NCBI RefSeq assembly: GCF_007845675.1 | Contig: NZ_VOBR01000020.1 | Coordinates: 1-64,000, forward strand | Reading direction: 5' to 3' | From: Lentzea tibetensis | Lineage (GTDB): Bacteria > Actinomycetota > Actinomycetes > Mycobacteriales > Pseudonocardiaceae | Length of the DNA: 64,000 nt | Shown here: one piece after another, positions 23,700 through 50,355 of the stretch | How the letters are laid out: every line of letters starts with the position of its first letter | Position numbering within the stretch: the stretch's first letter is position 1 | Notes under the pieces: model-generated | What the model was told of the DNA's origin: nothing | The model's input: the letters and a program-made list of their open reading frames with translations, nothing else | Databases searched by the model: none | Translations under genes and position numbers: made by a program

Positions 23700-23703
<4 letters not shown>
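23491..23703 (-). CDS. mbtH-like: MbtH-like protein
   Basis: A 70-aa MbtH-family chaperone that binds and activates NRPS adenylation domains. Conserved residues are NPFEN at the start, [14 protein letters not shown] with the invariant SLWP and PxGW elements, and LDHVDEHW. It overlaps the NRPS stop by 4 bp (ATGA) and is the expected partner of the A domains of this cluster. Confidence 0.95.
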
Positions 23704-38120
<14,417 letters not shown>

Positions 38121-38233
38121 GAACCCGCCCCGTCCGATTCCCCCGCGTCCGGCGAAACGCCCCCGATGCACCGGACTGATGCGCTAGCTTGGCCCGGCAC
38201 GTTTCCAGTCCACCAGTGCCAATGGAGCGAGAA
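38121..38233. promoter_or_regulatory. Divergent promoter region between NRPS and MocR regulator
   Basis: A 113-bp spacer between divergent start codons must hold the NRPS-arm promoter and that of the regulator. A 9-bp direct repeat CGTTTCCAG occurs at 38200-38208 and 38240-38248, with the second copy inside the regulator's first codons; MocR proteins often bind direct repeats. GGAG at 38224-38227 is the regulator's ribosome binding site. Confidence 0.5.
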
Positions 38234-39703
38234 ATGGACCGTTTCCAGGACCCGGCAGAACTGGTCGAGCTCCTCGGTGACTGGTCGACGGCGCGCGGAC
38301 CGCTGTACCGGAGGCTGGCGGCCGCGCTCACCAAGGCGATGCGCGCGGGCGACCTGCCGCACGGCGAACGGCTGCCGTCCGAACGGGACCTCGCCAGGAT
38401 GTTGCAGGTCAGCAGGGCGACCGTGGTCGCGGCGTACGACGAGCTGCGCAGCGCGGGCATGGTCGACAGCAGGCGCGGCAGCGGCACCAGGGTCACCACC
38501 GAGGCGCCGAAGCGCAGGCCGGGCGCGGACGGCCGGGTGCCGGGTGGTCGCGCGACGTCGATCTTCCAGCGGCTCGTGGACGGACCGGGCGAGCTGATCT
38601 CGCTGGCGTTCGCGGTCGAACCGGCCGCACCCGAGCTCGCGGACGTGGTGCGCGAGCTCGTCGACGAGGAGCTGCCGGAGCTGCTGGCCGACGTCGGTTA
38701 CCACCCGCGCGGGTTCCCGCCGCTGCGCGAGACGATCTCCGCGTACTACAAGGAGATGCAGCTCCCGACGGTCCCGGACCAGGTGCTCGTGACGACCGGC
38801 GCGCAGCAGGCGCTCGGCCTGGTCGGTCAGATGTACCTGCGGCCGGGCTCGACCGTCGTCGTCGAGTCGCCGAGCTGGCCCGGCTGCCTCGACGTGTTCC
38901 GCGCTGCGGGCGCGAAGATGATCTCCGTGCCGCTGGACGACGAGGGTATCTCCGCCGACGGCCTCGCGCAGGCGTTCGGCGAGCACCGGCCGGCACTGCT
39001 GTACGTGATGCCGACGTTCCACAACCCGACGGGCACCCTCATGTCCGCGCACCGGCGGAGCAGGGTCGCCGAGATCGCCGCCCGCCACGAGGTCCCCGTG
39101 CTGGAGGACAACGCCTACACCTCGTCGGACTCGGCGTGCGTGCCACCGATCGCGGCGTTCGCGCCACCGGGCGCCGAGGTGCTGACGGTCGGCTCGCTCG
39201 CCAAGGCGGTATGGGGCGGCCTGCGGATCGGCTGGGTGCGCGCGCCCGGCGAGATCACCGAACGCCTCGCTCGGTACAAGGTGCGCGCGGACCTCGCGAG
39301 CCCGGTGCTCGACCAGGCGCTGGCCGCGCGCGTCCTGCCGCGGCTCGACGAGATCGCCGACGGCCGCGCCGCGGTGATGAACGCGCGGCTCGACCTGCTG
39401 TGCGACCTGCTCACCGAGCACCTGCCGGACTGGCGGTGGCGCAGGCCGGACGGCGGCTCCGCGCTGTGGACCGAGCTGCCGGACACCGACGCGCGGGTCT
39501 TCGCCCAACTCGCGCTGCGCCAGGGCGTCGAGGTCGTGCCCGGCGCGGTCAACGACCCGACCGGCGGACACGACAACCACATTCGCCTGCCGTTCACCTT
39601 CCCCGAGGAGACGCTGACCGAACTGGTCCGCAGGCTCCACCGGGCGTGGCTCGAACTAAAGCGCCACGGCCCGGAAAACCCGACCCACCACCCGTCGGTG
39701 TAA
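38234..39703 (+). CDS. MocR-type (GntR + aminotransferase) transcriptional regulator
   Basis: A 489-aa regulator. An N-terminal GntR winged helix (LYRRLAAALTKAMRAGDLPH, RLPSERDLARMLQVSRATVV, RRGSGTRVT) is linked to a fold-type I aminotransferase domain. The PLP-binding lysine is apparent in VGSLAKAVWGGLRIGW near residue 325, and MPTFHNPTGTLM and LEDNAYTSSDS mark the cofactor pocket. MocR proteins sense PLP, an amino acid or their adduct. ATG 38234 is chosen because GGAG precedes it at proper spacing; in-frame ATG 38222 lacks one. It sits between the two arms and is the obvious cluster regulator. Confidence 0.9.
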   Translation: MDRFQDPAELVELLGDWSTARGPLYRRLAAALTKAMRAGDLPHGERLPSERDLARMLQVSRATVVAAYDELRSAGMVDSRRGSGTRVTTEAPKRRPGADGRVPGGRATSIFQRLVDGPGELISLAFAVEPAAPELADVVRELVDEELPELLADVGYHPRGFPPLRETISAYYKEMQLPTVPDQVLVTTGAQQALGLVGQMYLRPGSTVVVESPSWPGCLDVFRAAGAKMISVPLDDEGISADGLAQAFGEHRPALLYVMPTFHNPTGTLMSAHRRSRVAEIAARHEVPVLEDNAYTSSDSACVPPIAAFAPPGAEVLTVGSLAKAVWGGLRIGWVRAPGEITERLARYKVRADLASPVLDQALAARVLPRLDEIADGRAAVMNARLDLLCDLLTEHLPDWRWRRPDGGSALWTELPDTDARVFAQLALRQGVEVVPGAVNDPTGGHDNHIRLPFTFPEETLTELVRRLHRAWLELKRHGPENPTHHPSV

Positions 39704-40243: not shown

Positions 40244-41905
40244 GTGCTGCACGAAAACGAGACTTCACGGTCCCTTGTGGACTGCTTCGTCACCGTTGCC
40301 AGACGCAGGCCGGACGCACCGGCGCTGGTCTGGCGCGACACCACCACCAGCTACGGCGAACTGCACTGGAAAGCGCTGCGCGCACAGGAGCACGTCGCCA
40401 CCCTGCCCGACGGGCCGATCGGTCTCGTCGCACCGAAGTCCCCGGACTCGATCGCGCTCGTGCTCGGCTGCCTGCTGGCGGGCAGGCGATTCCTGCTGCC
40501 GTCGGCCGCGCTGGCCGAGCCGGTGCGCGCGGAACTGTTCTCCGTCAGCGGATGCACGACCGTGCTCTCCGCGAAGAACGTTCACGTCAGCGGCGCCACC
40601 ACGCCCTTCCGTCCTGATCCGGACCGCGTCACGTTCATGCTGACCACGTCCGGCTCGACCGGGATGCCGAAGGTCGTGCCGCTCACCGAGGGCGCGGTCG
40701 ACCGGTTCACCGACTGGGCGGGCGAGACGTTCGGGCTGCGCCGCGTGCTCAACTACAGCCCGCTCAACTTCGACCTGTGCCTGCTCGACGTCTGGGCGAC
40801 GCTCAAGCACGGCGGCACCGTCGTGCTCGTCGACCCGGACCGCGCGACGAACGCCGGGCACCTCAGCGAACTCGTGCACGACATCGAGGTCGTGCAGGCG
40901 GTGCCGATGCTGTTCGCGCTGCTCGCCGAGCGGACCGACTGCTACCCGCGGGTGCGGCACGTGATCGTCACCGGCGACACCGTCGCCGGCCGCCTGCTGG
41001 CCAGGCTGCCGGAGCTGTTCCCGAACGCCAGGCTGCACAACCTCTACGGCTGCACCGAGACCAACGACAGCCTGCTGCACGAGCTCGACCCGGCGCACCT
41101 GAGCAGCCCGGTCCCGCTGGGCACACCGCTGCCCGGCGTCGACATCAGGGTCGTCGCGGACGGCGTGGAGCTCACCGGGCCGGGGACGGGCGAGCTGCAC
41201 GCGCGCACGCCGTTCCAGACCACCGGCTACCTCGACCCCGCGCTCAACGCGGGCAGGTTCACCGGCGACGGCTTCTACCGCACCGGCGACCTCGTCCGGG
41301 TCAGCCAGGACGGCGTGCTGACCCTGGTGGGGCGCAACGACTTCCAGGTCAAGGTGCGCGGCGTGCGCACGAACGTCCAGGAGGTCGAACAGGTGCTGCT
41401 CGCGCACCAGGAGGTCACCGAGGCCGTGGTCGTCGCGATTCCGGACGCGCTCGCCGGGCACCTGCTGCACGCCGAGCTGCGGCACGCGCCCGGCTCGCGG
41501 CTGAACTCGCTGGAGCTGCGGCGGTTCTGCGCCGACCGGCTGCCCGCGACGTCGATCCCCTCCACCTTCCGCGTCTCCGGCGACCCGCTGCCGAGGACCT
41601 CGACCGGCAAACCGGACCGCCAACGACTCATTCAGGGAAGGCTCATCATGGACCGCACCAAGGAGATCACGAAGTTCGTCGTCGAGGAGTTCCTGCCCGA
41701 CGTGGCGCCGGGCTCGCTCGCCGCCGACTACGACCTGCTCGCCGGTGGCGTGATCGACAGCCTCGGTCTGCTGAAGGTCATCGCGTGGCTGGAGGACCGC
41801 TACGACCTCGCCGTCGACGACGTCGAGCTGGAGCCGGACAGCTTCCGCACGGTCGACGCCATCAACGACTTCATCGACCGAGCACAACAACCGGTGTCCG
41901 GATGA
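40244..41905 (+). CDS. Adenylation-carrier protein fusion (pyrrole-loading type)
   Basis: A 553-aa stand-alone A domain (residues 1-465) fused to a carrier domain (470-553). ATP-binding [33 protein letters not shown] and the A10 Lys in TSTGKPDRQR are present. The carrier begins MDRTKEITKFVVEEFLPDVA and has GGVIDSLGLLK with the phosphopantetheine Ser. It resembles separate CloN4/CloN5-type prolyl ligase and PCP pairs of pyrrole pathways. The pocket code by eye is DLLQITLDSK; Asp235 is kept, so an alpha-amino or imino acid is expected, but the code differs from the usual proline code DLLYLALVCK. First gene of the operon; GTG start, stop overlapped by trpD. Confidence 0.85.
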   Translation: MLHENETSRSLVDCFVTVARRRPDAPALVWRDTTTSYGELHWKALRAQEHVATLPDGPIGLVAPKSPDSIALVLGCLLAGRRFLLPSAALAEPVRAELFSVSGCTTVLSAKNVHVSGATTPFRPDPDRVTFMLTTSGSTGMPKVVPLTEGAVDRFTDWAGETFGLRRVLNYSPLNFDLCLLDVWATLKHGGTVVLVDPDRATNAGHLSELVHDIEVVQAVPMLFALLAERTDCYPRVRHVIVTGDTVAGRLLARLPELFPNARLHNLYGCTETNDSLLHELDPAHLSSPVPLGTPLPGVDIRVVADGVELTGPGTGELHARTPFQTTGYLDPALNAGRFTGDGFYRTGDLVRVSQDGVLTLVGRNDFQVKVRGVRTNVQEVEQVLLAHQEVTEAVVVAIPDALAGHLLHAELRHAPGSRLNSLELRRFCADRLPATSIPSTFRVSGDPLPRTSTGKPDRQRLIQGRLIMDRTKEITKFVVEEFLPDVAPGSLAADYDLLAGGVIDSLGLLKVIAWLEDRYDLAVDDVELEPDSFRTVDAINDFIDRAQQPVSG

Positions 41906-42903
41906 AGACCTCGCATCAGCTGCTGGACGCCGTCGTCAACCGCAGGCGGCCGGTCGAACCCGGGATGTGCCGGGAGTTCTGGGACCGGCTCGGTGACCGG
42001 CAGGTCGACGCGGCCGAAGCCGCCGCACTGCTCGCCGCTCTCTCGGCCCGCATGCCGGACCCCGCCGCCGTCGCCACGCTCGTCGAGTCGCTGCTGGAAC
42101 GCAGGCCGCGGCACGGGCACCGGTTCCCCGGTGCGGTGAACGTCGTCGGCACCGGCGGCGGTCCCAGCACCGCCAACATCTCCACCGCCGCGGCGTTCGT
42201 CGCCGCTGCCGCCGGTGTGCCGGTCGTCAAGACCGGGTCGCGCGCCAGCTCCGGCGGCGTCGGGTCGATCAACCTGCTGGACCGGCTGGGCGTGTCGCTC
42301 ACCCGGTCCTACGAGCGGACCGGGGAGCACCTGGCCCGGTTCGGCATCGCGTTCGCCGGCTACTTCGTCTACCCGGTCGAGCTGACCCGGCTGGCGCGGA
42401 CGGTGCTGCCGCTGGACATGCGCACCATCGGCCGCTGGGTCAACACGATCGGGCCGTTCCTGGCCGACGTGCCGGTGTCCGCGCAGCTCACCGGCGTGTC
42501 CGACGTCGCGCACCTGCCCGCGTTGCGACGGCTTGCCGACGGCAGGCGGATCTGGTTGTGCACCAACGACCTCGGCGCCGACGAGCTGGTCAGCGTCGCG
42601 GTCAACACCGTCCACGGCGACAGCACGTTTACGGTCGACCCGCGTGAGCTCGGCATCGACGGCGGCTCGCTCGACGACCTGCGCGGCCCGTCCGACGACG
42701 CGGAGGTCGTCACCCACTTCCTGGACCTGCTGGCGGGCAGGGCCTCGTCGACGGCGGTGGCGACGGTGTGCCTGAACGCGGCCGCGCTCGCGGTGGCCGG
42801 CGGACACCAGCCGAACCTGACGTCCGGTCTGCGCGCGGCGTTCTCGGCCGTCGCGGACGGTGCCGCGCGAGCACTGGCGGAGCGGGTGATGAGCCGTGGC
42901 TGA
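41902..42903 (+). CDS. trpD-like: TrpD-like phosphoribosyltransferase with altered anthranilate site
   Basis: A 333-aa homologue of anthranilate phosphoribosyltransferase, which joins PRPP to the amine of anthranilate. PRPP-loop GTGGGPSTANISTAAAF, the Mg-binding NDLGADELV and MRTIGRWVNTIGP are visible. Two features differ from TrpD: canonical GTGGDG is GTGGGP, and the anthranilate-contacting KHGNR motif is KTGSR, so the His and Asn that hold anthranilate are replaced. I infer an amino-heteroaryl substrate other than anthranilate. ATGA overlap with the upstream gene. Confidence 0.85.
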   Translation: MKTSHQLLDAVVNRRRPVEPGMCREFWDRLGDRQVDAAEAAALLAALSARMPDPAAVATLVESLLERRPRHGHRFPGAVNVVGTGGGPSTANISTAAAFVAAAAGVPVVKTGSRASSGGVGSINLLDRLGVSLTRSYERTGEHLARFGIAFAGYFVYPVELTRLARTVLPLDMRTIGRWVNTIGPFLADVPVSAQLTGVSDVAHLPALRRLADGRRIWLCTNDLGADELVSVAVNTVHGDSTFTVDPRELGIDGGSLDDLRGPSDDAEVVTHFLDLLAGRASSTAVATVCLNAAALAVAGGHQPNLTSGLRAAFSAVADGAARALAERVMSRG

Positions 42904-43660
42904 CCGGTTCTTCGACGGCGCCGATCCGGGCCTGGTGCTGTTCCTCAACGCAGGCGACCCGCCGCTTCCCGTGCTGCGCGACGTGGTCCAGATGCTCGAC
43001 GACCAGCGCGTCGACTGCCTGGAGCTGGCCGTGCCGTTCCCCGACTCGTTCACCGACGGCCCGGTCGTGCGGCGCTCCGCGCAACGGGCGCTCGACCAGG
43101 GTGTCGACCTGCCCGCGGTGCTGGAGTTCCTCGACGCGACACCGAGGAAGCACCTGAGAATCGCGTTGCTGGCCGACTGGAGCCACACCGTGAAGCCGAC
43201 GCCGATCGGCGACTTCGTGGCACGCGTCGCCGACTCGGCCGCCGACGCGCTGCTGGTGCACGGACTGCCGCCACGCCTGCGGTCCGGGTACTACGCGCAA
43301 GCCGCCGAGCACGCGGTACCGCTGGTCACCACGTGCTATCCGGGTTCGTCGGACGAGGTGCGGCGCGAGTCGGCGCACCACGCGTCCGCCTACCTGTACC
43401 TGGTCGCGCACTACGGCCGCAGCGGATCCCGTCCCGCAACGGGGTTCGACGCGTTGCGCGACCCGATCGCGAAGCTGCGCACCGAGACCACCGCACCGAT
43501 CGCGGTCGGCTTCGGGGCACGCACGCGTCAGGACGTCGTCGCGATCCACGCGGCAGGCGCGGACGCGGTCGTCATCGGCAGCGGAGCCGTCGAGCAGGTC
43601 GAAAGCGACCCGGTCGGCAACCTCTCCCGCTTCGTCCACACCACCAAGGAGGAAAGATGA
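42896..43660 (+). CDS. trpA-like: TrpA-like tryptophan synthase alpha homologue
   Basis: A 254-aa TIM-barrel homologue of TrpA, which splits indole-3-glycerol phosphate to indole and glyceraldehyde-3-phosphate. The catalytic pair appears kept: Glu in LELAVPFPDSF and Asp in TDGPVVRRS. The phosphate end GVGFGxR-like part is IAVGFGARTRQDVVAI. The usual LVSRAGVTG loop is LVAHYGRSGS, and PFSDPLADGP is PFPDSFTDGP, so the indole-binding region is remodelled. GTG 42896 overlaps trpD by 8 bp. Confidence 0.85.
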   Translation: MADRFFDGADPGLVLFLNAGDPPLPVLRDVVQMLDDQRVDCLELAVPFPDSFTDGPVVRRSAQRALDQGVDLPAVLEFLDATPRKHLRIALLADWSHTVKPTPIGDFVARVADSAADALLVHGLPPRLRSGYYAQAAEHAVPLVTTCYPGSSDEVRRESAHHASAYLYLVAHYGRSGSRPATGFDALRDPIAKLRTETTAPIAVGFGARTRQDVVAIHAAGADAVVIGSGAVEQVESDPVGNLSRFVHTTKEER

Positions 43661-44031
43661 TCATTCGCTCGATCGAGGAGGTCCCGTCCGTCGAGTGGGG
43701 CAACGGCCTGAGCAGACGGTTCCTGCTCGACTCCGACGGCATGGGCTACACCGTGACCGACACGGTCGTCCGCGCGGGCACCAAGTCGCGCCTGGAGTAC
43801 CGCAACCACCTCGAGGCCTGCTACTGCATCGAGGGCAGGGGCGAGGTCGTCGACATGGACGGGCGATCGCACCCGATCACACCGGGGACGCTCTACGCGC
43901 TCGACGAGAACGACGCGCACTTCCTGATCGCCGCACCGGACACCGACCTGCGGCTCGTGTGCGTCTTCTCCCCCGCGTTGCGCGGGCACGAAAGACACAG
44001 TCTCGACTCGGGCGAGTTCTCGCACTACTGA
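43657..44031 (+). CDS. ectC-like: Ectoine synthase (EctC) homologue
   Basis: A 124-aa cupin closely resembling EctC, which cyclises gamma-N-acetyl-diaminobutyrate to ectoine. The metal ligands by alignment from memory are kept: Glu in NHLEACYCIEG, Tyr in GTLYALDEND and His in AHFL. The CVF of VCVFSPAL is also kept. Substrate-pocket strand DTVVRAGTKSRLEYRNH differs from EctC (DTTIYAGTETHIHYKNH). No ectA, ectB or ectD is nearby, so ectoine is not expected. EctC is known in vitro to cyclise glutamine to 5-amino-3,4-dihydro-2H-pyrrole-2-carboxylate. AAGGAGG precedes the ATG. Confidence 0.9.
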   Translation: MIIRSIEEVPSVEWGNGLSRRFLLDSDGMGYTVTDTVVRAGTKSRLEYRNHLEACYCIEGRGEVVDMDGRSHPITPGTLYALDENDAHFLIAAPDTDLRLVCVFSPALRGHERHSLDSGEFSHY

Positions 44032-44048
44032 GCGACCGGAGCACGAAC

Positions 44049-45191
44049 GTGATCACCTGGAACTCCGACCAGCGGGCCTTGCGCGCCGGGCTGGCCGAGT
44101 GGTCGGCGAAGCTCAGTGCCGACCACGTCGAACGCGACGCCGAAGGCGGCTTCTCCTGGGACAAGTGGGAACTCGTCCGGGGGTGCGGCCTGCTGCGGCT
44201 GCCGTTCGACGAACGCTGGGGCGGGCTCGGCCAAGACCTGCTCACCACGATGTACCTGCTGGAAGGACTCGGCTACGACTGTCGTGACGGCGGACTGAAC
44301 TTCGCCGTCTCGACGCACGTCGTCAGCACCGGGATCCCGTTGCAGCGCTACGGTTCCGCCGCTCTGAAGGACCGCTACCTCCCCGCCGTCTGCGACGGCT
44401 CCAAGATCGGCGCGCACGCCATCACCGAGCCGGGAGGCGGCTCGGACGCACTGGCGATGCGCACTCGGGCGGTCCGCGACGGCGACTCCTACGTGCTGAA
44501 CGGCAGCAAGACGTTCGTGAGCAACGGCCCGGTGGCCGACCTCTTCGTCGTGTACGCGCGGACGCATCCGGACGGCGGTCCTCTGGGGACGACCGCCTTC
44601 CTGGTCGAACGCGGCACGCCGGGGTTCAGCGTCGGCAACCCGATCGCGAAGATGGGCCTGCGGACCGCACCGCTGGCCGAGCTGTACTTCGACGAGTGCC
44701 GGATCCCGGCAGGCAACGTCGTCGGACGGCCGGGCGCCGGGTTCCTGGTGCTCGACTTCGTGATGAAGTGGGAGATCCTCTGCTCGTTCGTGATCAACCT
44801 GGGCGAGATGCAGCACCGGCTCGAGCGGTGCGTCGCCTACGCGGGCCAGCGCACCCAGTTCGGCGCTTCCATCGGCACCTACCAGGCCGTCTCGCACAAG
44901 ATCGCGGACATGAAGGTCGGCGTCGAGACGACGCGGAAGTGGTTGTACGACACGGCGGTCAAGGTCGCGGCCGGCGAGAACGTCACCACCGACATGGCGA
45001 TCACGAAGCTCGTGGCGAGCGAGCAGAACGTCGCGTCCGCCATGTCGGCGGTGCAGATCTTCGGCGGCAACGGCTACATGGCCGAGTACGGCCTGGAGAA
45101 GGACCTGCGCAACGCCGTCGCCGGAACCATCTACTCGGGCACGTCCGAGATCCAGCGCAACCGGATCTCGTCGATGCTCGGGCTCGGATAG
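44049..45191 (+). CDS. Acyl-CoA-dehydrogenase-like flavoenzyme (carrier-bound substrate)
   Basis: A 380-aa acyl-CoA dehydrogenase family protein with FAD. Motifs are HAITEPGGGSDALAM, FVSNGPVADLFVV, AYAGQRTQFGASIGTYQAV and QIFGGNGYMAEYGLEKDLR. The medium-chain catalytic Glu in IYEGT is replaced by Ser (IYSGTSEIQRNR), as in family branches that take the base from another helix. With the A-PCP fusion it resembles the prolyl-PCP to pyrrolyl-PCP oxidases (CloN3, PltE, RedW). Likely role: aromatising a carrier-bound pyrroline. GTG 44049 gives the normal family length. Confidence 0.85.
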   Translation: MITWNSDQRALRAGLAEWSAKLSADHVERDAEGGFSWDKWELVRGCGLLRLPFDERWGGLGQDLLTTMYLLEGLGYDCRDGGLNFAVSTHVVSTGIPLQRYGSAALKDRYLPAVCDGSKIGAHAITEPGGGSDALAMRTRAVRDGDSYVLNGSKTFVSNGPVADLFVVYARTHPDGGPLGTTAFLVERGTPGFSVGNPIAKMGLRTAPLAELYFDECRIPAGNVVGRPGAGFLVLDFVMKWEILCSFVINLGEMQHRLERCVAYAGQRTQFGASIGTYQAVSHKIADMKVGVETTRKWLYDTAVKVAAGENVTTDMAITKLVASEQNVASAMSAVQIFGGNGYMAEYGLEKDLRNAVAGTIYSGTSEIQRNRISSMLGLG

Positions 45192-45198
45192 GAGCGCC

Positions 45199-45843
45199 GT
45201 GGAGTTCATCGACCACACCTCGCCCGAGGTCAGGGACTTCGTGGCGCGGACCGTGTCCACGGTGGAAGGACGGGTCGCGCAGACCGTCGCGCTGTACCGG
45301 GCGGTTCGGGACGAGATCAGGTACGAGGTCTACGACGCGGACCTGTCCCGGACCGGCCTGCGCGCGAGCCAGGTGCTGCGCGCCGGCGCCGGCATGTGCA
45401 TCCACAAGTCGATCGCCTACGCGGCCTGCCTGCGTGCGATCGGCGTGCCGAGCAGGCTGGTGCTCACCGACGTGCGCAACCACCTGTCGTCACCGCGGCT
45501 GCGCGAGCTCGTCGGCGGCGACGTGTTCCGCTTCCACTGCCTTACGTCCGTCCACACCGGACAGCGCTGGGTGCGCGCGACCCCGGTGTTCAACAAGAAC
45601 CTCTGCCGTCTCTACGGAATCACCCCGCTCGACTTCGACGGCACGTCCGACAGCGTGTACCACCCGTTCGACCAGCAGGGCCGCGCGCACATGGAGTTCC
45701 TGCACGAGCACGGCGAGTTCGACGACCTGCCGTACGACCTCGTGCTCACCGGCCTGCGCGCCGCACACCCCCGCATCTTCGCCGACGCCGACCGGTTCGC
45801 CACGGGCTCGCTGGTCGCCGACGCCCAAGGAGGCCTCTCATGA
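45199..45843 (+). CDS. Transglutaminase-like cysteine enzyme
   Basis: A 214-aa transglutaminase-core protein. The nucleophile Cys is in AGAGMCIHKSIAYAACLRAI, followed by GVPSRLVLTDVRNHL; a His is available in HMEFLHEHGEF and an Asp in DDLPYD. Such folds in antibiotic clusters act as acyltransferases or hydrolases on carrier thioesters. Here a plausible job is release or transfer of the aromatic acid from the PCP. It starts at GTG 45199, 7 bp after the dehydrogenase, and overlaps trpB. Confidence 0.8.
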   Translation: MEFIDHTSPEVRDFVARTVSTVEGRVAQTVALYRAVRDEIRYEVYDADLSRTGLRASQVLRAGAGMCIHKSIAYAACLRAIGVPSRLVLTDVRNHLSSPRLRELVGGDVFRFHCLTSVHTGQRWVRATPVFNKNLCRLYGITPLDFDGTSDSVYHPFDQQGRAHMEFLHEHGEFDDLPYDLVLTGLRAAHPRIFADADRFATGSLVADAQGGLS

Positions 45844-47204
45844 CGGAACAGATCAAGTACCTGCTCGACGAGAAGGACATCCCCACCACCTGGTACAACA
45901 TCGCCGCCGACCTGCCGGACCTGGCGCCGTTGATGCACCCCGGCACCGGTGCGCCGATCACGGTCGACGACCTGGTGCCGATCATGCCGGAGGCCGTGGC
46001 GCGGCAGGAGCTGAGCCGCGAGCGGGAGATCGAGATCCCCGAGCCGGTGCGGCAGATCTACGCGCAGTGGCGGCCGTCGCCGCTGTTCCGCGCCAGACGG
46101 CTGGAACGGCTGCTCGACACCCCCGCGCGCATCTACTACAAGTACGAGGGCGGCAGCCCGGCAGGCAGCCACAAGCCGAACACCGCGATCGCGCAGGCGT
46201 TCTACAACCACGAGGCGAGGATCAGAAAGCTCGCCACGGAGACCGGCGCCGGCCAGTGGGGTTCGTCGTTGTCGCTGGCCGGGGCGCTGTTCGGCCTGCA
46301 GGTGCAGGTCTACATGGTCATGGTCAGCTTCCACCAGAAGCCGTACCGGCGGCTGCTGATGGAGACCTACGGCGCGCGGTGCGTCGCGAGCCCGTCGCTC
46401 GAGACCGCGGCCGGTCGCGCGATTCTCGCCGCCGATCCGGAGTGCACGGGCAGCCTCGGCATCGCGACGTCCGAGGCGCTCGAGGTCGCGATGAACGACC
46501 CGGAGACCAACTACGCGGGCGGCAGCGTGCTCAACCACGTGCTGCTGCACCAGAGCGTGATCGGCCAGGAGGCGCTGGCGCAGTTCGCCATGGCGCAGGA
46601 CTACCCGGACGTCGTGGTCGGCTGCGCGGGCGGTGGTTCGAACCTGGGCGGGCTGACGTTCCCGTTCCTCGGCGAGAAGCTGCGCGGTGGCCGGGACGTG
46701 CGCGTGGTCGCGGCCGAGCCCGCCGCTTGCCCCACGCTGACCAGGGGCAAGCTGGCGTACGACTTCGGTGACACGGCCGGGCTGACGCCGTTGCTGCGCA
46801 TGCACACCCTGGGCCACTCGTTCGTGCCGCCGTCGTTCCACGCGGGCGGGCTGCGCTACCACGGCATGGCACCACTGGTCAGCGCCGCGCTCGACGCGAA
46901 CCTGCTGGAGGCGGTGGCCGTCGAGCAGTCGCGGTGCTTCGCGGCGGGAATCCAGTTCGCGCGTGCCGAGGGCATCGTGCCCGCACCCGAGTCGACGCAC
47001 GCGATCTCGGTCGCCGTGCAGGAGGCGTTGCGCTGCAAGGAGGAGGGCCGTTCGGAGGCGATCCTGTTCGGACTGTCCGGGCACGGGCACTTCGACCTGT
47101 CCGCCTACGAGGCGCACCTCGGCGGCGCGCTGCGCGACGAGGGCGTCGACCAGACGCGCCTGGACGCGGCGCTGGCCCAGCTGCCCGCGCTGGCCGATGC
47201 CTGA
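45840..47204 (+). CDS. trpB2-like: TrpB2-type tryptophan synthase beta homologue
   Basis: A 454-aa PLP enzyme of the TrpB2 branch (longer, with an N-terminal extension including WYNIAADLP). PLP Lys lies in GSHKPNTA, catalytic Glu in ETGAGQWGSSL, and the phosphate loop is GCAGGGSNLGG. HSFVPPSFHAGGLRYHG and the C-terminal LFGLSGHGHFD are TrpB2 hallmarks. It should join an indole-like ring with serine or phosphoserine. TrpB2 normally works without tight TrpA contact, yet a TrpA homologue is in the same operon. Confidence 0.9.
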   Translation: MTEQIKYLLDEKDIPTTWYNIAADLPDLAPLMHPGTGAPITVDDLVPIMPEAVARQELSREREIEIPEPVRQIYAQWRPSPLFRARRLERLLDTPARIYYKYEGGSPAGSHKPNTAIAQAFYNHEARIRKLATETGAGQWGSSLSLAGALFGLQVQVYMVMVSFHQKPYRRLLMETYGARCVASPSLETAAGRAILAADPECTGSLGIATSEALEVAMNDPETNYAGGSVLNHVLLHQSVIGQEALAQFAMAQDYPDVVVGCAGGGSNLGGLTFPFLGEKLRGGRDVRVVAAEPAACPTLTRGKLAYDFGDTAGLTPLLRMHTLGHSFVPPSFHAGGLRYHGMAPLVSAALDANLLEAVAVEQSRCFAAGIQFARAEGIVPAPESTHAISVAVQEALRCKEEGRSEAILFGLSGHGHFDLSAYEAHLGGALRDEGVDQTRLDAALAQLPALADA

Positions 47205-47850
47205 GCTCAAGGTCTGCGGCGTCACCAGCACCGCTGACCTCAACCTGCTCGCGACGTCCGGCGCGGACATGGCCGGGCTGTGGCACGGCGTTCCCGGCGG
47301 ACACGCCGACCTGACCATCGGCAGGCTGACCTCGCTGGCCGCGGCGGCGCACCTGGTCACGCCGGTGCTGGTGACGCTGGCCGCCGAGGTGCGCGACGTG
47401 CTCGCCGTGTCCGGGATCCGGGTGGTGCAGCTGCACGGCTACCAGGCGCCCGGTGTGGTGCGCGCGTTGAAGCGCGACGGCGTGCACGTGATCAAGGTGC
47501 TGCACGTCGCGGGTTCGGTGTGCCCGGAGCGGCCGTTGATCCGCGCGTACGAACGGGCGGGTGTCGACTCGTTCCTGATCGACGCGGTCGGGGACGACGG
47601 GCGGATCGGGAGCACCGGGCAGTCGCTGGCTCCGGCCGCTGTGCTGTCGCTGGCGGCCTCGTTGTCGCGGCCGTTCCTGCTCGCCGGCGGGATCACCGCG
47701 GACAACGCGCCCGCGTTCGCCGAGGTCGCGGCGCATCCGGGGTTCCTCGGGGTCGACGTGGACACCGGGGCGCGGGATTCCCTGGGGTGCATCGACGCCG
47801 GACGTGTCCGTGCCCTGCGGCGGGCGTGGGACGGGCGGGTGGCCGCGTGA
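47197..47850 (+). CDS. trpF-like: TrpF-like phosphoribosyl-amine isomerase
   Basis: A 217-aa TIM barrel related to phosphoribosylanthranilate isomerase, which does an Amadori rearrangement. The general base Cys is in LKVCGVTS; the general acid Asp is in SFLIDAVGDDG; VVQLHGYQAPGVV and LLAGGITADNAPAF are conserved. The usual SPR motif near residue 35 is missing (LWHGVPGGHADL), removing the Arg that contacts the anthranilate carboxylate. ATG 47197 overlaps trpB by 8 bp and gives the family N-terminus. Confidence 0.85.
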   Translation: MPELKVCGVTSTADLNLLATSGADMAGLWHGVPGGHADLTIGRLTSLAAAAHLVTPVLVTLAAEVRDVLAVSGIRVVQLHGYQAPGVVRALKRDGVHVIKVLHVAGSVCPERPLIRAYERAGVDSFLIDAVGDDGRIGSTGQSLAPAAVLSLAASLSRPFLLAGGITADNAPAFAEVAAHPGFLGVDVDTGARDSLGCIDAGRVRALRRAWDGRVAA

Positions 47851-48536
47851 GCCCGTTCGTCGAGGCGATCACCGGGGCCCTCGCCCCGGTGATCGCCGAG
47901 GTGAAGCTGCGGTCGGCCGACGGCCACGACCTGCTGCGCGGCCGTTCCGTGGCGTCGGTGGTCGCGGCGTACCGGGAAGCCGGTGCGCCGTGCGTGTCCG
48001 TGGTGACCGGGCGGTGGTTCGGTGGCACTCCCGCGCTGCTGCGCGAGGTGGCGTCACTGGTTGACGTTCCGGTGCTGCAGAAGGACTTCATCACGCGGGA
48101 GAGCCAGCTTCGGCAGGCTCGCTCACTGGGTGCGTCCGCTGTGCTGCTGACCGCCGCGTTGCTGCCCGCGGGTGTGCTGCGTTCGTTGGCCGATCGTGCT
48201 TTGGGGCTCGGGCTCACGCCGTTCATCGAGGTGGCATCCGCCGGGGAGCTGCCTGCTGACGCGTCGGGCTGCGTGGTCGCGGTGAACAACAAGGACATCG
48301 CAACGCGTGAGCGCACCGGTGGTTCCGTCGAACGCGGGCTTTCGTTGTTGCCCGCGGTGCTGGCGACCGGCACGCCCTGCCCGGTGAGCGCCAGCGGCAT
48401 CTCCCCCGCCGCCGGAGCCCGTCTGGTGCACGCCGGTTTCGCCGGACTGTTGGTAGGGACCGATCTGCTGCGGGCTTCCTCCCCCGCCGCGTGGTTCGAC
48501 GAGTTCACGCGTCATCGTCTGGAGGACACCGCATGA
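47847..48536 (+). CDS. trpC-like: TrpC-like indole-3-glycerol-phosphate synthase homologue
   Basis: A 229-aa homologue, shorter than the usual about 260 because the N-terminal helical cap is missing. Catalytic residues are kept: Glu and Lys in IAEVKLRS, Lys in VPVLQKDFI, Glu in PFIEVAS, Asn in VAVNNKDIAT and Ser in VSASGIS. The SPSKG segment is SADGHD, and the Arg of NNRDL that holds the anthranilate carboxylate is Lys (NNKDI). This favours ring closure on a different aminoaryl substrate. GTG 47847 overlaps trpF by 4 bp. Confidence 0.85.
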   Translation: MSPFVEAITGALAPVIAEVKLRSADGHDLLRGRSVASVVAAYREAGAPCVSVVTGRWFGGTPALLREVASLVDVPVLQKDFITRESQLRQARSLGASAVLLTAALLPAGVLRSLADRALGLGLTPFIEVASAGELPADASGCVVAVNNKDIATRERTGGSVERGLSLLPAVLATGTPCPVSASGISPAAGARLVHAGFAGLLVGTDLLRASSPAAWFDEFTRHRLEDTA

Positions 48537-49792
48537 CCGGGCTCCGCTCCCTGCTGCCGGATCTGCTGGTCCACTCCGCGCCGCTGCCCGTCGACCGGAT
48601 CGGTGCGGACTTCGCCGCCCGGTTCGCCGGCGTGCCCGCGACTTCTTCGGCGTGCGCGGAACCTGCCGTGCTGTATCCCGTGACCGGCTCGGACATCCCG
48701 GTGCTGCTGGGCATGTACGGCTGCGAGGAGCGGGTGCGCGGCTGGCTGCCCGGTGGTGCCGCGGACTTGGTGGAAAGGGCCGTCGCGCCGGAGCACGTGG
48801 TCGATCCGCCGTGCCAGCAGGCGAAGTCGCAGCTCTCCGCGCTCCCCGTGCTGCGCACGACCCCGCGTGACGCCGGGCCGTACATCACGATGGGCGTGGT
48901 GCACGCGCACGATCCGGAGACCGGCGAGAGCGCGCTGTCCGTGCACCGGATGCTGGTGCTGAGCGCCGATCGGCTGGCCATCTGGATGGTGCCGGGCCGC
49001 CAGCTGCTCGCGATGCACCGGCGGCTCGGCAGGCTGCCGGTGTCGGTCAACATCGGCGCTCCCCCGGCCGCGATGGTCGCGTCCGCGTTGTCCAGCGCCG
49101 TGCTGCCGGACGGCGTCGGCAAGCTCGACGTGGCCGGAGCGCTCGCCGGGGCGCCGTTGACTGTCGCCGATGGGATCAGCCAGCCGGTGCGGGTGCTGGC
49201 TTCGGCCGAGATCGTGCTGGAGGGCTACCTGTCCGACGAGGTCGCGGACGAGGGTGCCGGTGTGTCGCTGCCCGAGTTCCTCGGCTACGACGGCGACACC
49301 CGCTCGGGCCTCCCGGTGCTGACCGTCACCGCGGTGACGACCCGGCGGGATCCCGTCTACCAGGCGGTGATCGGTCCGGGCCGCGAGCAGTCGGTGATAC
49401 TCGGCCTGGCGGGCGCGCTGTCCGTCGCGCTGTGCGGCGACCCGGCTCTCGCCGACCTGCACTTCCCCGCCGCCGGTGGCGGGATGCTCACCCTGTTCGC
49501 CTCGGTGCGGCCGAACTCCGACCTGGCCTCCGCAGCGCGGCGGATCTTCGACCGGCACCGGTTCGTCAAACTGATCGTCTTCACCGACACCGACGTGGAC
49601 ATCCGCTGTGCCGAGGACGTGTGGTGGGCGGTGACCACCCGCGCGAACCTGGGCGCCGACTGCACCACGTTCGACGGGTACCAGCCGCTGGCGATGGACC
49701 CGTCGCAGGCGCCGGGCTGGCGTCCCGGCGGCACCGGTCGCACGTTCATCGACGCCACCTCGGCGCACCCCGTTCGCCGGAGCTTCGCATGA
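48533..49792 (+). CDS. ubiD-like: UbiD-family decarboxylase
   Basis: A 419-aa member of the prenylated-FMN-dependent UbiD family. Recognisable segments are YITMGVVHAHDPETGESALS, LPVSVNIGAPPAAMVAS and AEIVLEGYLSDEVADEGAGV with the acidic residues of the active site, then GYDGDTRSGLPVLTVTAV. Members act on aromatic and heteroaromatic acids, including pyrrole-2-carboxylate. Here it probably removes or adds a ring carboxylate during building of the amino acid. ATGA overlaps with trpC and ubiX. Confidence 0.85.
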   Translation: MTGLRSLLPDLLVHSAPLPVDRIGADFAARFAGVPATSSACAEPAVLYPVTGSDIPVLLGMYGCEERVRGWLPGGAADLVERAVAPEHVVDPPCQQAKSQLSALPVLRTTPRDAGPYITMGVVHAHDPETGESALSVHRMLVLSADRLAIWMVPGRQLLAMHRRLGRLPVSVNIGAPPAAMVASALSSAVLPDGVGKLDVAGALAGAPLTVADGISQPVRVLASAEIVLEGYLSDEVADEGAGVSLPEFLGYDGDTRSGLPVLTVTAVTTRRDPVYQAVIGPGREQSVILGLAGALSVALCGDPALADLHFPAAGGGMLTLFASVRPNSDLASAARRIFDRHRFVKLIVFTDTDVDIRCAEDVWWAVTTRANLGADCTTFDGYQPLAMDPSQAPGWRPGGTGRTFIDATSAHPVRRSFA

Positions 49793-50355
49793 AGCTCGTC
49801 GTGGGCATCACCGGCGCGACCGGGTCGATCATCGGCATCCGGCTCCTGCAGGCGTTGCGCTCGCTCGAGGTCGAGACGCACCTGGTGCTCAGCAGGTGGG
49901 GCCGGGCGACGTTGGAGATGGAGACCGACTTCACCGCCGCCGAGGTCCGCTCGCTCGCGGACGTGTCGTACGGGCCGGGCGACGCGTCCGCGGCGATCGC
50001 CAGCGGCTCGTTCCGCACCGACGGCATGATCATCGCGCCGTGCAGCATGAAGACCTTGGCGGCCGTGCGCACCGGTTACGGCGACGGGCTCATCCCGCGT
50101 GCCGCCGACGTGGCGTTGAAGGAGCGGCGCAAGCTCGTGCTCGTGCCGCGTGAGCTGCCGCTGTCCGAGATCCACCTGGAGAACATGTTGGCGCTCACCA
50201 GGATGGGGGCGGTGATCGCGCCGCCCGTGCCCGCCTTCTACACGCGGCCTGCGTCGATCGACGAGCTCGTGACGCACATCGTGGCTCGGGTGCTGGACCA
50301 GTTCGGTCTCGACGTCGGCGCGCCGCGGTGGACCGGGTCTGGGACGTTCGAGTGA
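49789..50355 (+). CDS. ubiX-like: UbiX-like flavin prenyltransferase
   Basis: A 188-aa flavoprotein that makes prenyl-FMN for UbiD. Motifs are KLVVGITGATGSIIGIRLLQ, the APCSMKTLAAVRTGYGDGLI segment, DVALKERRKLVLVPRELPLS, IHLENMLALTRMGAVIAPPV and PAFYTRP. Its ATG overlaps the ubiD stop. As last gene of the operon it supplies the cofactor of its neighbour, which supports the pair being active. Confidence 0.95.
   Translation: MKLVVGITGATGSIIGIRLLQALRSLEVETHLVLSRWGRATLEMETDFTAAEVRSLADVSYGPGDASAAIASGSFRTDGMIIAPCSMKTLAAVRTGYGDGLIPRAADVALKERRKLVLVPRELPLSEIHLENMLALTRMGAVIAPPVPAFYTRPASIDELVTHIVARVLDQFGLDVGAPRWTGSGTFE

Follow-up and report, generated by a model that had tools for sequence, protein, structure and literature searches.

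A conserved operon of Lentzea tibetensis predicted to encode an anthranilate-free, tryptophan-like pathway on a carrier protein

The operon and the families of its genes

The window analysed here is the whole of a 64,000-nucleotide stretch of the actinomycete Lentzea tibetensis (assembly GCF_007845675.1, contig NZ_VOBR01000020.1, positions 1 to 64,000), and the system in question is an operon of eleven contiguous genes on its plus strand. These genes fill positions 40244-50355 exactly. At eight of the ten junctions the overlap is 4 or 8 bases, and gaps of 17 and 7 bases separate the genes at the other two, in agreement with an earlier sequence-only reading of the window, which had described eleven same-strand, mostly overlapping genes without an anthranilate synthase; none of the eleven is indeed a TrpE or TrpG by Pfam or NCBIfam. 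Matches to the models of these two collections assigned the proteins as follows.

40244-41905, plus strand: A-PCP, a fusion of an adenylation (A) domain and a peptidyl carrier protein (PCP) domain with a DSL serine motif (Pfam AMP-binding); proposed to load glutamine.
41902-42903, plus strand: TrpD-like phosphoribosyltransferase with an altered acceptor site (Glycos_transf_3; 144.6 bits against a TrpD equivalog cut-off of 199).
42896-43660, plus strand: TrpA-like aldolase (TIGR00262, 130.7 bits, over the cut-off of 102); proposed to free glyceraldehyde 3-phosphate by a retro-aldol reaction.
43657-44031, plus strand: EctC-like cupin (Ectoine_synth; over the PRK13290 cut-off); proposed to cyclodehydrate Gln-S-PCP to a cyclic amidine.
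44049-45191, plus strand: flavoenzyme of the acyl-CoA dehydrogenase type, similar to prolyl-PCP dehydrogenases (ACAD; Pfam acyl-CoA dehydrogenase); proposed to aromatise the ring to an aminopyrrolyl thioester.
45199-45843, plus strand: transglutaminase-like protein (TGL; Transglut_core); proposed thioesterase freeing the carboxylate from the PCP.
45840-47204, plus strand: TrpB2-type pyridoxal phosphate (PLP) enzyme (PRK12391, 687 bits, and TIGR01415, both over their cut-offs); proposed to carry out the serine beta-substitution with the heteroaromatic ring.
47197-47850, plus strand: TrpF-like isomerase (PRAI; NCBIfam 64.6 bits, far under the cut-off of 215).
47847-48536, plus strand: TrpC-like ring-closing enzyme of the indole-3-glycerol-phosphate synthase (IGPS) family with a shortened N-terminus (IGPS; NCBIfam 125.1 bits against a cut-off of 284).
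48533-49792, plus strand: UbiD-family decarboxylase (UbiD and UbiD_C).
49789-50355, plus strand: UbiX flavin prenyltransferase, which makes the UbiD cofactor (TIGR00421, 258.7 bits, over the cut-off).

With a confidence slightly above even, we read this operon as a carrier-protein-tethered, tryptophan-like pathway that would end in (dihydropyrrolopyrrolyl)alanine for the adjacent nonribosomal peptide synthetase (NRPS). The identities of the genes, their conservation, their modularity and the residue changes described below were read from the sequence, and from these we infer the substrates, the order of the steps and the product.

The window TrpD, TrpF and TrpC lie well under their NCBIfam equivalog cut-offs and TrpA, TrpB2, EctC and UbiX exceed theirs. 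The best NCBIfam models for the ACAD are PigA (361 bits) followed by the prolyl-PCP dehydrogenase RedW (358 bits), both under their cut-offs. The A domain, the PCP and a prolyl-PCP-dehydrogenase-type ACAD, which together form the pyrrolyl-PCP trio, are all present in the operon, and UbiD is accompanied by the UbiX prenyl flavin mononucleotide (prenyl-FMN) synthase. No EctA or EctB family match was found among the operon proteins, the rest of the genome not having been searched for these two families, and the window EctC is the sole EctC-family match in the genome. Outside the operon the genome contains seven chorismate-binding genes. A separate trp locus lies on contig C15 (chorismate-binding gene at 207996, TrpC at 209341, TrpA at 211425), and C20 carries one more TrpD, in which both anthranilate-carboxylate contacts (N138 and R193) are present.

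A conserved seven-gene core and a separable upstream module

The window TrpC was used as the query for relatives, which were found in 26 of the 298 genomes drawn from the family of the window. A scan of an 84,980-species collection matched 173 stretches, 98 of which were confirmed as relatives and 80 of these taken; four of the 80, to judge by their record titles, lie outside Actinomycetota (Roseomonas, Azospirillum and metagenome-assembled genomes of an Acetobacteraceae and a Dormiibacterota). Moreover, 23 plasmid records were matched, down to the TrpC of Bacteroides and Neisseria, and seven stretches were used. Removal of 17 repeats from the total of 117 loci left 100 distinct loci with a relative of the divergent TrpC, the window itself not counted (individual loci are given L numbers).

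The core was defined as A-PCP (or A plus PCP), TrpD, TrpA, EctC, the prolyl-PCP-dehydrogenase-like ACAD, TrpF and TrpC. All seven genes are matched in 81 of the 100 loci, or in 80 if L131 is dropped, the sole ACAD match of which is 33% identical and on the opposite strand. The order APCP-TrpD-TrpA-EctC-ACAD-TrpF-TrpC on one strand is found in 77 of the 81 (the exceptions being L097, L129, L130 and L131), and over the complete loci the protein distances correlate for all 21 protein pairs with an r of 0.72-0.94 that includes shared species history. Because 81 of 100 loci match all seven core genes, their company is not due to chance and the operon is a dedicated, conserved pathway. The 19 incomplete loci are partly cut at contig or stretch ends (L068, L072, L073, L091, L128, L086, L098 and L123), and true exceptions among them include the split loci of Actinokineospora (L053, L054, L133 and L135). 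A distant version occurs on a plasmid of Aliiroseovarius crassostreae (L141), in which TGL, EctC, two ketosynthase-type genes, ACAD, A, ACP and TrpD accompany a TrpC that is 43% identical and annotated as hypothetical; TrpA and TrpF are missing from it.

The core stands alone in 62 of the 100 loci and is joined by TGL in nine. The sequence-only reading had proposed a co-occurrence search; the seven-gene core is widely shared, and the full set with TGL, TrpB2, UbiD and UbiX, which is the type of the window, is found in 6/100 loci (window not counted). The core with TGL, UbiD and UbiX was found twice, with TGL, TrpB2 and UbiD once, and with UbiD once. This distribution supports UbiD/UbiX and TrpB2 being optional add-ons to the core. 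Since most relatives are without TrpB2 or UbiD, the core probably has a heteroaromatic acyl thioester as its conserved product, of which the amino acid would be one elaboration.

The fate of such a thioester may be read from the neighbouring genes. In four Streptomyces plasmids (L138, L139, L143 and L144) the core lacks TGL and lies beside a KASIII, a KASII-type synthase, MaoC, a short-chain dehydrogenase/reductase, an aminotransferase-fold enzyme and a methyltransferase, with an alpha/beta hydrolase also present in two of the four; a fifth annotated Streptomyces plasmid locus, which has TGL, shows no such synthases adjoining. A ketosynthase like that of L138 is present in the fetched stretch of 49 of the 63 TGL-less complete loci and in one of the 18 that bear TGL (Fisher p 2.9e-8, inflated by relatedness). 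Of the 14 TGL-less loci that lack it, three (L137, L065 and L080) show less than 2.2 kb upstream. TGL and the ketosynthase tend toward mutual exclusion, and on this reading the thioester would be either handed to the ketosynthase or hydrolysed by TGL. TGL, to which the sequence-only reading had given no role, fits as a release enzyme; its Cys67 and His113 are kept in 22/22 sequences, and no relative of it was found in the Protein Data Bank (PDB) at E up to 1. The plasmid neighbourhoods of the TGL-less core resemble a chain-extension pathway on a heteroaromatic starter.

In the 298 genomes a specialised EctC group scores 157-249 bits against an alignment of the family and three places score 123-129, and the remaining EctC homologues among the matches listed (at least 88 bits) do not exceed 105. 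With a threshold of E <= 1e-40, chosen after this score gap was visible, specialised EctC occurs in 24 of the 26 genomes with the TrpC versus 26 of the 272 others (Fisher p 2e-19). A role of EctC as an osmolyte gene was rejected as the main reading, as no EctA or EctB is found among the operon proteins and the scores of specialised EctC are set apart from those of the homologues listed.

Beyond the 100 loci, 40 further EctC loci were examined. In 32 of them (L161-L185, L187-L192 and L196) an A domain, PCP, EctC, ACAD and TGL are found without a TrpF, TrpC or TrpA match, which supports A-PCP/EctC/ACAD being an upstream module separable from TrpD/F/C. TrpB2 accompanies this module in 17 of the 32 and UbiD/UbiX in one (L169); three (L188, L190 and L191) have weak TrpD-like matches of 72-84 bits. 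In the 32 the A-domain specificity positions read DLxQxTxD[ST]K. The products of these cassettes are probably aminopyrrole-type acids or amino acids, and the cassettes would constitute a second undescribed family. Of the other eight loci, L186 has EctC, ACAD and TrpF, and L193, L194, L195, L197, L198, L199 and L200 have EctC. Weak NRPS-like A-domain matches stand beside the specialised or intermediate EctC of L193, L194, L198 and L199 and ACAD is missing there, so that these loci are perhaps makers of a non-aromatised aminopyrroline acid.

In Actinokineospora (four genomes of one genus) the pathway is split over two places. The first operon (L161-L164) reads A-PCP-EctC-ACAD-TGL-TrpB2 and the second MocR-PCP-TrpD-TrpB2-TrpF-TrpC-UbiD (L053, L054 and L133; L135 shows only MocR, TrpB2, TrpC and UbiD). 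An A domain, EctC, ACAD and TrpA are all missing from the second operon, which nevertheless retains a free PCP directly before TrpD; this PCP was read in L053 and seen as a PCP-sized match in L133 and L054. Its retention is the clearest hint that TrpD/F/C act on a carrier-bound substrate.

The split, together with the 32 module-only loci and their 17 cases of TrpB2, also speaks for another explanation, that the operon combines two half-pathways. An aminopyrrole-type amino acid would then come from A-PCP/EctC/ACAD/TGL (with TrpB2) and a separate heterocycle from TrpD/F/C/A acting on another amine, the NRPS using both. We regard this as unlikely: in 77 of the 81 complete loci the genes of the two halves are intermingled along a single strand, the halves diverge together, and the second Actinokineospora operon has a PCP of its own before TrpD.

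Substrate contacts in the enzymes

Residue numbers of TrpD and TrpC were mapped by motif via the other TrpD and TrpC of the genome, and those of EctC via the printed sequence of P. lautus. In TrpD from Mycobacterium tuberculosis, the anthranilate carboxylate is held by R193 and N138 (PMC9835598). In 91 aligned TrpD rows the equivalents of the GTGG glycine, N117, S119, K135, D251 and E252, which are the residues for phosphoribosyl pyrophosphate (PRPP) and Mg, are kept 91/91. N138 is Ser in all 91, R193 is Arg in none (L 50, T 13, V 10, M 9, others 9) and H136 is T in 75 and S in 16. This supports a TrpD family that has lost its grip on anthranilate and retained its PRPP residues, and the anthranilate-free pathway proposed by the sequence-only reading is supported at the level of residues.

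An ordinary duplication of the tryptophan genes was rejected on these missing contacts. As a wider explanation, the operon might be a supply operon, in which extra TrpD/F/C/A/B would turn anthranilate from another source into tryptophan or a simple indole and the neighbouring genes would be unrelated. The main catalytic residues kept in the window TrpC and TrpA and the seven chorismate-binding genes would suit it, and extra trp genes are common in antibiotic clusters. It is nevertheless very improbable, given the changed TrpD, the window TrpD, TrpF and TrpC scores under the equivalog cut-offs and the near-constant company of EctC, A-PCP and ACAD; moreover most loci show no TrpB2, canonical TrpB not having been searched for there.

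In TrpC (101 rows), E51, K53, K110, E159 and N180 are each kept 101/101 and R182 is replaced by K in 100/101. The N-terminus is about 33 residues shorter than in SsIGPS, and 16-24 residues precede the E51 equivalent in 98/100 loci, a length that is partly imposed as the start codons in the relatives were chosen nearest that of the window. The AlphaFold model of TrpC has a pLDDT (predicted local distance difference test) of 94.8 and retains a short helix before strand 1. Each of its top 50 listed PDB matches is either an IGPS structure or a protein that resembles IGPS or was engineered from it. That this end forms an "open lid" admitting the PCP is only a possibility. The E49 equivalent of TrpA is present in 87/87 rows, and the motif GSHKPN, which we take to be the PLP lysine motif of TrpB2, is invariant in 13 aligned rows.

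The EctC iron ligands E57, Y84 and H92 are present in 88/88 core rows, as is each of S23, R25, T40, Y52 and F106, so that the amide and amine contacts are kept. N38 is replaced in all 88 (T 84, A 2, C 2) and is T, A or C in the 40 further loci; as a control, this position is His in three lower-scoring, presumably canonical EctC. In a study of ectoine synthase (PMC6344544), N38 contacts the carboxylate of the substrate, the native reaction makes a six-membered ring from acylated diaminobutyrate, and the Halomonas elongata enzyme cyclises glutamine to 5-aminopyrroline acid as a side reaction. The loss of N38 across the family is what a thioester substrate would lead one to expect. The sequence-only reading had EctC acting on free glutamine; the cyclisation role is retained here, but the loss of N38 and the PCP before TrpD suggest that glutamine is loaded first. 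The Trp21 column is Gly in 88/88 rows with an invariant Trp three residues upstream, and because of this nearby Trp and the shifted Trp reported for orphan EctC (PMC6344544) the change was not used as evidence. The AlphaFold model (pLDDT 86.5, the last 12 residues under 50) has ectoine synthases as its first PDB matches (5onm).

The best PDB match of the ACAD is the prolyl-ACP dehydrogenase 4irn (E 1.2e-89), and the Glu at the isovaleryl-CoA-dehydrogenase-like position is kept in 90/91 rows. UbiD has among its PDB relatives AnInD (7p9q) and PA0254 (4ip2), which we take to act on pyrrole- or indole-carboxylates. The relatives of A-PCP include the prolyl ligase 6o6e, and the carrier protein 2my5 for the PCP part.

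The specificity positions of the A domain, mapped by motif and given in GrsA numbering, read DLLQITLDSK in the window, a code for which we know of no exact match. They are nearly constant in 88 rows (D235 88, L236 85, L239 84, Q278 86, T301 83, D330 87, S331 86, K517 86), and for this reason nearly all loci probably share one substrate. It may be asked whether the logic is the same and the ring different, another amino acid being loaded or another cyclic amidine formed, so that the final bicycle would not be a pyrrolo[2,3-b]pyrrole. The unmatched code and the six-membered ring of the native EctC reaction speak for this, but glutamine requires no extra gene, EctA and EctB homologues are missing among the operon proteins and a five-membered ring suits a prolyl-PCP-dehydrogenase-like ACAD; we find it unlikely, and a little less probable than the two half-pathways.

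The proposed pathway and its setting

In the tethered pathway that we favour, the A domain would load L-Gln onto the PCP and EctC would join the side-chain amide to the alpha-amine, giving a 5-amino-pyrroline thioester. From this cyclic amidine one two-electron oxidation would be enough, and the ACAD would take two hydrogens to give 5-aminopyrrole-2-carboxyl-S-PCP. As free 2-aminopyrroles are reactive, tethering to a carrier would be sensible. TrpD would then put phosphoribose on the exocyclic amine and TrpF would perform the Amadori step. Because the acid is not adjacent to the amine, TrpC would have to close the second pyrrole onto an unsubstituted ring carbon, C4, with loss of water and a proton and not of CO2; in a carboxylate-free closure the aminopyrrole carbon should be a better nucleophile than benzene. 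Removal of glyceraldehyde 3-phosphate by TrpA would leave 1,6-dihydropyrrolo[2,3-b]pyrrole-carboxyl-S-PCP. In operons of the window type TGL would hydrolyse the thioester and UbiD, with prenyl-FMN made by UbiX, would decarboxylate the acid; the presence of UbiD would be explained by the carboxyl that remains on the bicycle. Finally TrpB2 would couple serine with the bicycle, yielding (dihydropyrrolopyrrolyl)alanine (C9H11N3O2, [M+H]+ 194.0924) for the adjacent NRPS. Besides the cofactors of the enzymes, the ten steps would consume only Gln, ATP, PRPP and Ser.

Several observations weigh against this pathway. In the stretches seen, L060 is without TrpA, L096 without TrpF and L056 has ACAD, TrpF and TrpC only, and two Streptomyces loci (L101 and L120) have TrpC only, 61-64% identical, with no other operon gene within about 20 kb. 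Actinokineospora auranticolor (L118/L045) has an operon of the window type minus EctC, and the only EctC match in its genome scores in the lower group and is not specialised. TrpB2 may act on the aminopyrrole instead of the bicycle, since it accompanies the module without TrpF/C/A in 17 of 32 loci. The choice of glutamine as the A-domain substrate is based on the presence of EctC and on a polar pocket and not on a match of the specificity code. The D60 equivalent of TrpA, present in the window, is found in 56/87 rows and missing in 31. In TrpC E210 is replaced by A in 100/101 rows and the equivalent Glu219Ala enzyme of M. tuberculosis IGPS had undetectable activity (PMC10591298). An IGPS of P. 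aeruginosa can achieve ring closure on a decarboxylated substrate (PMC7681013), which speaks for the proposed TrpC step, but with the benzene substrate this reaction is 2,500-fold slower, which speaks against it.

Genes and residues give good support to a dedicated and conserved pathway of the tryptophan type that is free of anthranilate and probably carrier-bound, and the named product 1,6-dihydropyrrolo[2,3-b]pyrrolyl-alanine is plausible, if unproven. The proposal of the sequence-only reading is largely supported, in another order of steps, in which the chemistry would take place on the carrier protein. We would give even chances to the broader proposal of a hitherto undescribed, widespread modular platform, in which Trp enzymes working on a carrier-bound, Gln-derived aminopyrrole would build an acyl unit with a pyrrolo[2,3-b]pyrrole ring. 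This unit would either pass to ketosynthases (mainly in Streptomyces) or, after release and decarboxylation, be converted by TrpB2 to a tryptophan isostere for an NRPS.

The pathway shares its enzyme families, and likely its order of phosphoribosylation, Amadori step, ring closure, retro-aldol reaction and serine beta-substitution, with the canonical tryptophan pathway. It differs from it in the lack of TrpE/TrpG, the changed acceptor site of TrpD, the presence of a carrier protein, a TrpC with K and A in place of R182 and E210 and a shorter N-terminus, and a beta subunit that is of the TrpB2 type or missing. The A domain, PCP and ACAD are homologous to the pyrrolyl-PCP trio of prodigiosin or pyoluteorin type, whereas in the operon EctC is added, the A-domain pocket is nearly constant and polar (Q278, T301, D330, S331) and the product would enter TrpD/F/C and not directly a polyketide synthase or NRPS. 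EctC has the cupin fold, the complete Fe site and the amide and amine contacts of ectoine synthase, but its carboxylate-contact residue is lost, the Trp is displaced and the gene sits with A-PCP instead of EctA and EctB. As in the UbiD/UbiX decarboxylases of heteroaromatic acids (PA0254, AnInD) both proteins are present, here only as a late and optional part of the operon family.

In the open-licence literature no description was found of a pathway combining EctC, TrpD, TrpC and UbiD, nor, judging by titles and the starts of abstracts, of a gene cluster for a pyrrolopyrrole tryptophan, and nothing was found there on an ectoine synthase with anthelvencin, pyrrolamide or kikumycin. An ectoine-synthase-like gene has reportedly been discussed for anthelvencin, an unconfirmed lead. 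The pathway would fall outside what defines a tryptophan operon or ectoine synthesis and exceed the pyrrolyl-PCP trio, with every enzyme family in it known. If this is true, the tryptophan pathway would have a second use, free of anthranilate and carried out on a carrier protein, which would supply both a tryptophan isostere and a new bicyclic starter unit. A function would also follow for the Streptomyces plasmid genes annotated "trpA", "ectoine synthase" and "indole-3-glycerol-phosphate synthase", and the operon would be a clean case of primary-metabolism enzymes re-aimed via lost substrate contacts. Each proposed step predicts a mass shift of the carrier protein, and is therefore directly testable.

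Two neighbours of the operon complete the locus.

23700-38171, minus strand: five-module NRPS with five A, four condensation (C) and five PCP domains and a thioesterase (TE) domain (Pfam).
38189-39703, plus strand: MocR-type (GntR-aminotransferase) regulator, upstream of the operon (NCBIfam MocR_like_YczR, 465 bits, just under the cut-off of 487).

The NRPS is divergent from the operon and adjoins it also in two other Lentzea, at 74% identity and with the set and order of the five A domains unchanged; it is the likely user of the amino acid product. A MocR-type regulator likewise accompanies the operon of two Lentzea and its variant in Actinokineospora, and in L136 an NRPS lies directly downstream of the operon. 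In four Pseudonocardiaceae loci with a TrpB2-bearing operon (L105, L118, L036 and L042) a divergent LanM-like gene adjoins (DUF4135, to which LANC_like is added in L036 and L042). L048 shows neither this gene nor an NRPS in the stretch seen, and L036 has an NRPS module in addition to the LanM-like gene.

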